Source of the DNA: Moraxellaceae bacterium
GTDB lineage: Bacteria > Pseudomonadota > Gammaproteobacteria > Pseudomonadales > Moraxellaceae
Assembly: GCA_020697295.1 (NCBI GenBank)
Contig: JAJFBF010000024.1
Coordinates: forward strand, 1-64,000
Length of the DNA stretch: 64,000 nt
Reading direction: 5' to 3'
The notes below the pieces were generated by a model. The model ran no database searches and was not told where the DNA came from. It saw only the letters and a program-made list of their open reading frames with translations. Shown here one piece after another: positions 44,833 to 49,622 of the stretch (the first letter of the stretch is position 1; every line of letters starts with the position of its first letter). The position numbers were made by a program, and so were the translations under genes.

Positions 44833-45783
44833 TCAGACCGACCGGGTGGGAATGCGCAGTTCCTTCGGCATGGAGAAGACGATGTGTTCCGGACGCCCTT
44901 CCAGCTCCTGCGGCACCTCGCCCCCCCACTCGCGCAGGCGGGCGATGACATCCTGGATCAGGACTTCGGGGGCCGAGGCGCCCGCCGTCAGCCCTACCAC
45001 TGCCACCCCCTCCAGCCAGGCCCGCTCGATCTGGCCGGCATTGTCGATGAGGTAGGCGCGGGCACCCATGCGCTCGGCCAGCTCGCGCAGGCGGTTGGAG
45101 TTGGAGGAGTTGGGCGAGCCCACGACCAGCACCACCTGGGCATCGGACGCCAGCTGCTTCACCGCGTCCTGCCGGTTCTGGGTGGCGTAGCAGATATCGT
45201 CCTTGCGCGGCCCCTGGATGGCGGGGAAGCGGGCGCGCAGTGCGTCAATGACGCGGGCGGTATCGTCCACGGACAGGGTGGTCTGGGTCACGAAGGCGAG
45301 CTTATCGGCATTGCGCACGCCAAGCGCCGCCACGTCGGCCTCATCCTCGACCAGATAGATGGCGCCGCCCTGGCGGGTATCGTACTGGCCCATGGTGCCC
45401 TCGACCTCGGGATGCCCTTCATGCCCGATGAGGATGGCCTCGGTGCCGGTCTTTGCATAACGGCTGACTTCCATATGCACCTTGGTGACCAGGGGGCAGG
45501 TGGCATCGAAGACGCGCAGGCCGCGCCTGCCGGCCTCCTCCTGGACTGCCTTGGACACCCCGTGGGCGGAAAAGATCACGACGCCGTCATCCGGCACCTG
45601 GTGCAGTTCCTCGACAAAGACAGCGCCGCGATTGCGCAGGTCATCGACCACGAACTTGTTGTGGACGACCTCGTGGCGGACATAAATGGGCGGCCCGAAG
45701 ACCTCGAGGGCGCGATTGACGATCTCGATGGCGCGATCCACGCCCGCACAGAAGCCCCGGGGATTAGCGAGTTTGATTTGCAT
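44833..45783 (-). CDS. ispH: 4-hydroxy-3-methylbut-2-enyl diphosphate reductase
   Basis: The last enzyme of the MEP isoprenoid pathway is an iron-sulfur protein making IPP and DMAPP. The 316-residue product equals E. coli IspH in length. The three cluster cysteines are in [21 protein letters not shown] and CYATQNRQ. The ATG at 45783 ([11 protein letters not shown]) matches the family and has GGGAG eight bases upstream. It is last in ileS-lspA-fkpB-ispH, where fkpB is broken. Confidence 0.96.
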
Positions 45784-45848
45784 TTTCATTTCTCCCGGCA
45801 CGAAAGTGCCGCCATTCGCCCATGACTCGCTGGCGTCCTGCCAGGCAT

Positions 45849-46159
45849 TTACTTCAGCGCAAGACTGACCGGCGCCGCGTCGGCATCCATGACCCGGATG
45901 ATATCGACCTCGAACACAAGATCACGGCCGGCCAGGGGATGATTGAAGTCGACCAGGACCGTCTCCTCGCTCACCTCCTTCACCACGCCCGGCGCAGGCC
46001 GAACAGCGCCGACTCGAAGCCCGGCAGCAAGCTGCCGTCGCCCACCGTGAACTCGGCCGGTACGCCGCCCGGCCGCGTATTGTCGACCACCTCGCCGTCG
46101 GCCAGCGCGACGGAGAAATGCAGGGTGACTTTCTTGCCCGGACCAATGCGATCAGACAT
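45849..46159 (-). pseudogene. fkpB: fkpB (SlpA) peptidyl-prolyl isomerase, disrupted by an internal frameshifting deletion
   Basis: The reading frame opens normally (MSDRIGPGKKVTLHFSVALA ... GFESALFGLR) but ends at a TGA at 45980-45982 after 59 codons. The conserved C-terminal part (PGVVKEVSEETVLVDFNHPL ... SLALK) resumes in another frame from about 45989 and stops at 45849. Compared with the ~149-residue E. coli FkpB, about 45-50 codons are missing, including the insert-in-flap chaperone domain. The junction GCGCCGG could be a product of deletion between short repeats. The gene keeps its place between lspA (8-base overlap) and ispH. A sequencing or assembly error cannot be excluded. Confidence 0.85.
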
Positions 46160-46652
46160 TTTCGGCCTGCCGTCTTCTCTCAAGGAAAAGGGAATCGAAA
46201 ACCAGGATGAAGGCGCCCACGGTGATGCCGCTATCGGCAATATTGAAGGCCGGGAAGTGCCAGGTGCCGTAATGCACATGGATAAAATCCACCACGTAGC
46301 CCAGCATCATGCGGTCATGGAGGTTGCCGAGGGCGCCGCCCAGCACAAGGGCAAGGCCGAACGCCAGGAACTGCTCATTGGCCTTGAGCTTGAACAGCCA
46401 GGCCACGATGCCCACGCTCACCACCACTGCAATGGCGCCGAAGAACCAGCGCTGCCAGCCGCCGGCGTCGTGCAGGAAGCTGAAGGCGGCACCGTAGTTG
46501 TGCGCCAGCGTCCAGCTGAAGAAAGGCAGCAGCGGGCGCGACTCGCCCAACTGCATATTGGCGCTGAACCACGCCTTGGTCGCAAGGTCGAGCACAACGA
46601 CCGCCAACGCGAGCCACAGCCACTTCAGGTTTTTTCGAGCTTGTTGATCCAC
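46152..46652 (-). CDS. lspA: Lipoprotein signal peptidase (signal peptidase II)
   Basis: This inner-membrane aspartic peptidase cleaves prolipoprotein signal peptides after lipidation. The 166-residue product has four membrane helices. Catalytic motifs are complete: AHNYGAAFSFL, GNLHDRMMLGYVVDFI and FNIADSGI. It follows ileS on the same strand after a 180-base gap holding palindromic repeats, and its end overlaps the start of fkpB. Confidence 0.96.
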   Translation of the reverse strand: MDQQARKNLKWLWLALAVVVLDLATKAWFSANMQLGESRPLLPFFSWTLAHNYGAAFSFLHDAGGWQRWFFGAIAVVVSVGIVAWLFKLKANEQFLAFGLALVLGGALGNLHDRMMLGYVVDFIHVHYGTWHFPAFNIADSGITVGAFILVFDSLFLERRRQAENV

Positions 46653-46832: not shown

Positions 46833-49622
46833 TCAGGCGAAGCGACGCGTTTCGCCAGCGCCACCCGGCAGGTTATCCACGCAGCGCAGGCAGATGTCGG
46901 CATGCGCCGCATTCGCGCCCACATCGGCCCGGTAATGCCAGCAGCGCGCGCACTTAGGCCAAGCCGAGGCCGCGACTTTCACGCGCAGCCCTTCCACTTC
47001 GGTGGCCACGCCCTGCTCCGCGAAGGGCTGCAGGCGCACCGCCGAGGTGATGAGCACGAAGCGCAGCTCGTCGCCCATGGCGGCCAGCGTTTTTTCCTGC
47101 GCTGGCGACACATAGAGGTCGACTTCCGCGGACAGGCCGGAGCCGACTTCCTTGCGGTTGCGCGCCTCCTCGATTTCCTTGTTCACCGCCGACTTCACCG
47201 CCATGACCTCATCCCAGTAGGCACGGGTCAGGGTGGGCTCGCCGGCGCCCTGCGGCAGTTCGGCGAGGCCGGTGTACCAGGTTTCGAGCTGAACGGATTC
47301 ACTGCGCGCGCCCGGCAGCACCGCCCAGATCTCGTCGGCTGTGAAGCTCAGGATGGGCGCCATCCAGCGCGTGAAGGCCTCGGCAATATGATAGAGGGCC
47401 GTCTGCGCCGAGCGTCGCGCCAGCGAATCCGGCTGCGTCGTGTACTGACGATCCTTGATGATGTCCAGGTAGAAGCCCCCCAGCTCCGCCACGCAAAAGC
47501 CGTGCAGCTTGTGGTAGATCTGGTGGAACTGGAAGCTGTCATAGGCGCCCACGATGTCGCTCTGCAGCAGCGCAGCGCGATCCACCACCCAGCGGTCCAG
47601 CGCCAGCATCTGGTCGGCCGGCACCAGGTGCTGCGCCGGATCAAAGCCGTTCAGGTTGGAGAGCAGGAAGCGCAGCGTGTTGCGGATGCGGCGGTAGGAG
47701 TCCGACATGCGCGTCAGGATCTCGTCGCTCACGGACATCTCGCCGCGGTAATCGGTGGCGGCCACCCAGAGGCGGATGATGTCCGCGCCCAGGGTCTGCA
47801 TGACCTTCTGCGGCGCCACCACATTGCCCACCGACTTGGACATCTTCTTGCCCTGCCCGTCCACGGTGAAGCCGTGGGTCAGCACCGTCCGGAACGGCGC
47901 CTGGCCATTGGCGGCGAGCGCCGTCAGCAGCGAGGACTGGAACCAGCCGCGATGCTGGTCGGAGCCTTCCAGGTAGAGATCGGCCGGGTACTGCAGGCCG
48001 TCAAAGCGCTTGAGCACGCAGGTGTGGGTCACGCCGGAGTCGAACCACACGTCCAGGGTGTCGGTGACCTTGTCATAATTCTGGGCGTCATCGCCCAGCA
48101 ACTCAGACGGCGCCAGGTCGAACCAGGCATCGATACCCGACTGCTCAACTTTCTCTGCAACTTTCTCGATGAGCTCCGCGGTCTGCGGATGCAACTCGCC
48201 GCTTTCCTTGTGCACGAACAGGGTGATGGGCACGCCCCAGGTGCGCTGGCGCGAGATGCACCAGTCCGGGCGGCCGGCGATCATGCCCTCGATGCGGGCC
48301 TGACCCCAGTCCGGCACCCACTGCACGCCCGGAATGGCCGTCATGGCGCTGTCGCGCAGGCCGGCCTGTTCCATGCTGATGAACCACTGCGGCGTGGCGC
48401 GGAAGATGATGGGCGTCTTGTGCCGCCAGCAATGCGGATAGCTGTGCTGGATCTTCTTGTGCGCCAGCAACAGCGAGCGATTGGCGCGCGAATGCGCCTT
48501 CAGCGCCTCGATGATCGGCTCGTTGGCCTTGTTCACGTGCATGCCGGCGAACAGCGGCGTACTCGGCAGGAACACGCCGGCGTTATCCACCGGGTTATCA
48601 ACGGCGAGACCGTATTTGCGGCCGATCACAAAGTCGTCCTGGCCGTGGCCGGGTGCGGTATGCACGGCGCCGGTGCCGGAGTCGGCAGTGACATGCTCGC
48701 CAACGATGACCGGTACTTCGCGCTCGAAGAAGGGATGCAGCAGCGCCAGGTGCTCAAGAGTGGCGCCGGTGACGGTGGCCAGGGTCTCGGCGTCGGTCGC
48801 CTCGTAGCGCGCCAGCGCGCCTTCCACGAGCGCGGCGGCGACGATGAAGGCGCGGCGCTCGCCAGCGATGGTGGCCGCGACGAGGGCGTAATCGAATTCC
48901 GGGTGCAGGCTCACCGCCTGGTTGGCCGGCAGCGTCCACGGGGTCGTGGTCCAGATCACCACGTCCACCGGCAGATCGAGAGTGGCCAGGCCCGCGCGCT
49001 TCGCAAGATCCGCCGGGTCCTTGACCGGGAAACCCACGTCCACGGCATGCGACTGCTTGTCCTCGTACTCGACTTCCGCCTCAGCGAGTGCGGAGCCGCA
49101 ATCCATGCACCAGTGCACCGGCTTCAGGCCCTTGTGCAGGTGGCCGTTCTGCGCAATCTGCCCCAGCACGCGGATGATGTCGGCTTCCTGCCTGAAGTTC
49201 ATGGTCAGGTAGGGATTGAACCAGTCCCCCAGCACGCCCAGGCGCATGAAGTCAGTGCGCTGCTTTTCCACCTGCGACTGCGCGTACTCGCGGCAGTGCT
49301 GGCGGAATTCCCTGGCCGTCACCTTGTCGCCGGGCTTACCGAACTTTTTCTCGACATTGAGCTCGATGGGCAGGCCATGGCAGTCCCAGCCCGGCACATA
49401 GGGCGCGTCAAAGCCCGACAGCGTCTTCGACTTGACGATGATGTCCTTGAGGATCTTGTTGACGGCATGGCCGATGTGGATGTCGCCGTTCGCATACGGC
49501 GGGCCATCGTGCAGGATGTACTTCGGCGCGCCGCGACGGGCCTCGCGAATCTTCTCGTAGAGCTTCTTTTCCTGCCAGGCGGCCACCATGGCGGGCTCGC
49601 GCGTGGCGAGACTGGCCTTCAT
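46833..49622 (-). CDS. ileS: Isoleucyl-tRNA synthetase
   Basis: The class I aminoacyl-tRNA synthetase has 929 residues from the first ATG at 49622. Motifs: [15 protein letters not shown] (HIGH), the CP1 editing domain with [17 protein letters not shown] in [12 protein letters not shown], and a C-terminal zinc finger (KCARCWHY ... CLRCVDN). Homologous coding continues 15 codons upstream of this ATG ([13 protein letters not shown], as in E. coli IleS) to an ACG codon at 49667, directly after an in-frame TGA. An ATG at 49675 is in a different frame. So either the start is non-standard or there is a small indel. Confidence 0.93.

Follow-up and report, generated by a model that had tools for sequence, protein, structure and literature searches.

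In Escherichia coli, fkpB lies between lspA and ispH. The window analyzed here, a 64,000-nt stretch of a draft Moraxellaceae genome, likewise holds an fkpB gene between lspA and ispH, with its start codon ATG at 46159 on the minus strand, and the question it raises is whether this gene has been broken and, if so, whether the break belongs to the organism or to its assembly. On the same strand, the end of lspA (signal peptidase II, 46152-46652) overlaps the fkpB start, and ispH (lytB) occupies positions 44833-45789. Both neighbors had been described as intact, which was confirmed by family matches and by comparison with two relatives. Upstream of lspA, our reading of the sequence gives a 929-aa open frame (46833-49622, minus strand), which we take to be ileS from the usual operon order. 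A palindrome-like G+C-rich word, CCCGCTTGCGCGGGA, occurs in two copies (46734 and 46802) between lspA and this frame.

The fkpB sequence is distributed over two frames. From the ATG, the N-terminal remnant (45980-46159, minus strand) reads MSDRIGPGKK...LLPGFESALFGLR and stays open for 59 aa, comprising 55 conserved codons plus 4, before a premature TGA at 45982-45980. The C-terminal remnant (45849-45992, minus strand) consists of 47 codons, PGVV...ALK, running from CCG at 45992 to the natural TAA at 45851-45849 in a frame offset by 2 relative to the N-terminal one. The deletion junction lies at 45991-45994 (minus strand), the exact point being ambiguous within these bases. In the heptamer GTGGTGA (45980-45986, minus strand), the premature TGA overlaps GTG codons of the C-terminal frame through a 4-nt GTGA overlap, a putative restart site. 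The NCBIfam profile PRK15095, which represents the FKBP-type 16-kDa prolyl isomerase FkpB/SlpA (PDB entries 4DT4 and 2M2A), matched the two remnants separately and in order, the N-terminal part at profile positions 2-57 and the C-terminal part at 112-145, and the match of each part excludes a chance pair of ORFs. Both parts scored below the curated cut-off of 125 bits, as did the intact FkpB of the congener G003 (120.7). The 55 and 47 codons align to the congeners in the right order, indicating that the locus is a gene remnant by descent. An intact FkpB, with its FKBP core and insert-in-flap domain in one open frame of about 150 aa, was not found in the window.

In all seven congeners with a detectable copy, 52 codons separate the codon after GL from the proline of PGVV, an interval of 156 nt. 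The window gene keeps 2 nt of this interval; 154 nt (51 codons plus 1 base), present in the seven congener copies, are therefore gone, and the frame has changed. The sequence-only reading had proposed a frame-changing deletion between conserved N- and C-terminal parts, and this diagnosis stands together with its coordinates; its estimate of some 45-50 missing codons, or 140-150 bases, was right about the loss and too low about its size.

The residues lost are 56-107 in congener numbering. We delimited the insert-in-flap domain as residues 73-131 of G003 FkpB from published crossover points, given in the consulted excerpt of PMC11013033 as an Ala-Tyr-Gly stretch before the insert and Leu-Xaa-Phe after it. 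By this definition the deletion costs the FKBP core 17 residues and the insert 35 of its 59. The earlier statement that the chaperone insert had been removed thus holds for these 35 residues and is too narrow, as part of the isomerase core went with them. Residues 1-142 of G003 FkpB align to E. coli FkpB (PDB entries 2M2A and 4DT4). In a predicted model of the G003 protein (mean pLDDT 81.2, pTM 0.59, built with ten sequences), the deletion removes two helices (67-71 and 84-87), three whole strands (60-65, 79-83, and 97-102), and the first part of strand 105-114. Initiation at the usual ATG is expected to give a 59-aa product that keeps the first 55 residues and would be without residues 56-72, the last isomerase-core strand, and the whole chaperone insert. 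With this part of the core and the entire insert missing, no FkpB activity is expected of the fragment. According to the portion of PMC7353009 consulted, E. coli FkpB needs an Asn-His-Pro region near residues 126-128 for full isomerase activity; in the window, the corresponding FNHPL is encoded solely in the frame that cannot be reached from the normal fkpB start.

A comparison with close relatives had been suggested as a check, and it placed the lesion in the window only. fkpB was found in seven of the eight congeners, each time as a single uninterrupted frame 157-182 codons long; the eighth, G005, is 59% complete and gave no match. Counted from the conserved start, the seven proteins are 154-156 aa long (L009 counted from its matched second residue). 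Among these relatives, the 154 nt are missing from the window alone. The N-terminal remnant shares 86% identity with G003 over residues 1-57, and as a query it matched 56 of 58 genomes, its own included, the misses being G005 and G044.

We extended the search with an FkpB alignment to an even sample of 299 family genomes. Some match was obtained in 298 of them, and a match at 1e-40 or better in 291, which is an E-value count and not a count of confirmed full-length frames. The eight genomes short of this threshold included the present one. G023 and G005 are incomplete genomes, G026 has a C-terminal fkpB piece at a contig end, and G077, in which not even IspH was matched, was set aside as unreadable. 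In G294 (C131) fkpB is interrupted by a run of N flanked by two copies of one sequence, a pattern suggestive of a scaffolding artefact. In G282 (C166) the fkpB frame runs into the contig end, where the translation resembles leftover sequencing-adapter sequence. The last, G106, is rated 100% complete and has its fkpB split over two abutting frames (G106:C12:16279-16736), while retaining another FKBP of the SlyD/FkpB type. It resembles the window in carrying an isolated disruption of fkpB of the indel or deletion pseudogene type; unlike the window, it lacks no large segment, and its split may be a sequencing error. The titles and abstract openings listed by the literature searches held no report of the window allele, which is most likely ordinary in kind, an isolated loss and no new kind of system.

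These family members bear directly on the possibility that the cells hold an intact fkpB and that the draft assembly followed a chimeric read or the path of a minor strain. The assembly is a draft in 145 contigs with 5.02% contamination (rated 99.17% complete), fkpB is intact in the seven detectable congener copies, and the breaks in G294 and G282 resemble artefacts, all of which speak for such an error. Against it, the assembly contains no second fkpB copy: the lost segment had no match in its own genome at an E-value of 10, the same query matching seven of nine genus genomes (the two without a match were G005, 59% complete, and the own genome), and the operon stretch is present once in the own assembly. 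Across the 85-kb contig, fkpB was the only frame split in two relative to both of the relatives compared. G003 supplied 57 homologous frames, extending to about 77 kb, and G006 supplied 64 over the full length. A further three frames were split against G003 only, and several showed partial coverage, some of them falling in one region (about 23.8-25.1 kb) in both comparisons; we read the partial and the G003-only cases as probable frame-start differences or divergence. A collapse of repeats would require a long repeat at the deletion ends, and none was found in 120-nt windows of the seven congeners, in which the longest common words measured 6 to 9 nt, too short for this mechanism. Together, the searches of the own genome, the contig-wide frame comparison, and the shortness of the shared words favor a real deletion. 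We consider an assembly or population artefact unlikely, and it is probable that the window carries a recent null allele of fkpB produced by a 154-nt internal deletion.

The deletion would begin immediately past codon 55 and end midway through the part encoding the insert-in-flap domain, fusing the two sides out of frame. The sequence-only reading had pointed to GCGCCGG at the junction as a word that might have recurred at both ends of the lost segment. This idea failed, as GCGCCGG is present at neither end in the seven congeners; it occurs once in their coding sequences, in L012, about 70 nt before the first end. The codon at the junction is an arginine codon in four of the seven congeners, and if the ancestral codon was CGC, the two sides would have had only 2 nt (GC) in common at the junction. 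Two other shared words were considered and rejected. TGCCGG (6 nt) is common to both ends in three of the seven congeners, and a 9-nt word, TGAAGGAGG, lies near both ends in G003; slippage on either would not leave the observed junction. We infer a single deletion step with little or no shared sequence.

The remnants show little decay. Compared with the nearest relative, G003, 8 of 90 residues differ in the retained pieces, and six outgroups placed three of these differences on the window side and one on the G003 side, leaving four unplaced. The dN/dS ratio of the retained pieces between the window and G003 was 0.09; ratios ranged from 0.09 to 0.18 in the seven pairs that include the window versus 0.056 to 0.145 in the other pairs (20 with a value, one undefined), all of them rough because many dS values are high. 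The slightly higher window ratios are compatible with a brief relaxation or with noise. Since intact genes also show low dN/dS, the ratio does not discriminate between an assembly error and a real deletion of recent date. Nucleotide identity of the operon stretch to G003 is 81-83%. If real, the lesion postdates the split from G003 and, because the retained pieces have decayed so little, probably falls late on the branch.

The consequences for ispH depend on how the two genes are connected. In E. coli, where fkpB adjoins ispH, any one of the six genes for cytoplasmic prolyl isomerases can be lost singly, fkpB among them, but disrupting fkpB produced the behavior of ispH mutants, which disappeared once the deletion was constructed in non-polar form; disruption was polar on ispH because the two genes are coupled (PMC7353009). 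The earlier suggestion that loss of FkpB may be tolerated agrees with single dispensability, but given this polarity tolerance does not follow automatically, and by analogy a cost is predicted for the loss in the window. Counted from the fkpB stop, the likely ispH start, ATG 45789 or 45783, is 59 or 65 nt away, with GGGAG just before it; an in-frame GTG also occurs at 45801. The distance from the fkpB stop to the homologous ATG is 70 nt in G003, which has further in-frame ATGs at 46 and 22 nt, and 10-38 nt in the remaining six congeners; fkpB and ispH overlap in some more distant relatives. Around fkpB-ispH, no sigma-70-like promoter was found on either strand, a terminator search returned a single plus-strand match, which was weak (shuffle mean 0.4), and the ispH leader folded no better than shuffled sequences (z 0.02). 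A small hairpin, GGCAC-TTTC-GTGCC, sits on the minus strand at 45797-45810, immediately ahead of the GGGAG that precedes ispH.

Polarity on ispH may be mild in the window, as proposed from the distance of 59-65 nt and the GGGAG preceding the start. The own genome also retains a short FKBP, an FkpA/FklB-like FKBP, and trigger factor (names given by reading of the sequence), so that loss of FkpB could be tolerated through the prolyl isomerases that remain. The remaining prolyl isomerases and a separate ispH start make tolerance plausible.

Ribosomes may also restart at the GTG that overlaps the premature stop, which raises the possibility that the split gene is still used, its second piece being made by restart and its translation keeping ribosomes moving toward ispH. 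The GTGA overlap (45983-45980), a C-terminal frame open to its natural stop, the continued conservation of that piece, and the fkpB-ispH coupling in E. coli are consistent with this reading. However, we saw by eye no Shine-Dalgarno-like word upstream of the GTG, and the overlap derives from ancestral VVK codons that are identical in the intact G003 gene. Moreover, some 51 residues are missing, among them strands and helices of both core and insert, and the distance to ispH is similarly wide behind the intact G003 gene. We regard continued use of the split gene as very improbable. Still more remote is frameshifting by the ribosome at the junction to yield a shortened FkpB. The open C-terminal frame speaks for it, but within the 60 nt preceding the stop no X XXY YYZ heptamer begins, and the fused product would still be without residues 56-107. 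The null allele remains our preferred reading.

Whether the loss extends to a related chaperone was addressed with SlyD (NCBIfam PRK10737), which, according to the consulted excerpt of PMC11013033, has the same FKBP plus insert-in-flap architecture as FkpB. The SlyD model matched the window remnant more weakly than the FkpB model did, and in the congeners slyD is a separate gene, detected in seven of eight (five above the curated cut-off; the G008 match covers positions 1-121 of 196). In the own genome, rated 99.17% complete, the SlyD model found the fkpB remnant only. With fkpB broken and slyD undetected, the lineage could be in the process of giving up its insert-in-flap FKBP chaperones altogether, which we consider quite unlikely. 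In G006 the gene order, with labels by reading, is gpsA, htpG, a DUF3015-like gene, a DUF4105-like gene, slyD, TetR, and a FadH-like gene. In the own assembly, contig C137 starts inside htpG beside gpsA (G000:C137:1-1053), and C132 starts in a repeat-rich frame that reads as adhesin-like, beside TetR and FadH (G000:C132:1-1298), on the TetR side, where the congeners have slyD. The DUF4105-like neighbor was not found in the own genome either, in a search run without a like-for-like positive control; tblastn with the DUF4105-like protein matches G006 and G002. Because both contigs end where slyD would lie and this neighbor went undetected too, the simplest reading is that slyD falls in an unassembled gap, which is likelier than its loss.

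If the deletion is real, the window would hold a naturally occurring fkpB null within an operon in which, in E. coli, fkpB is coupled to the essential ispH, and it would thus offer a natural case of relaxed coupling between the two genes. Otherwise, the locus is a routine pseudogene call, of value chiefly as a caution for annotation.
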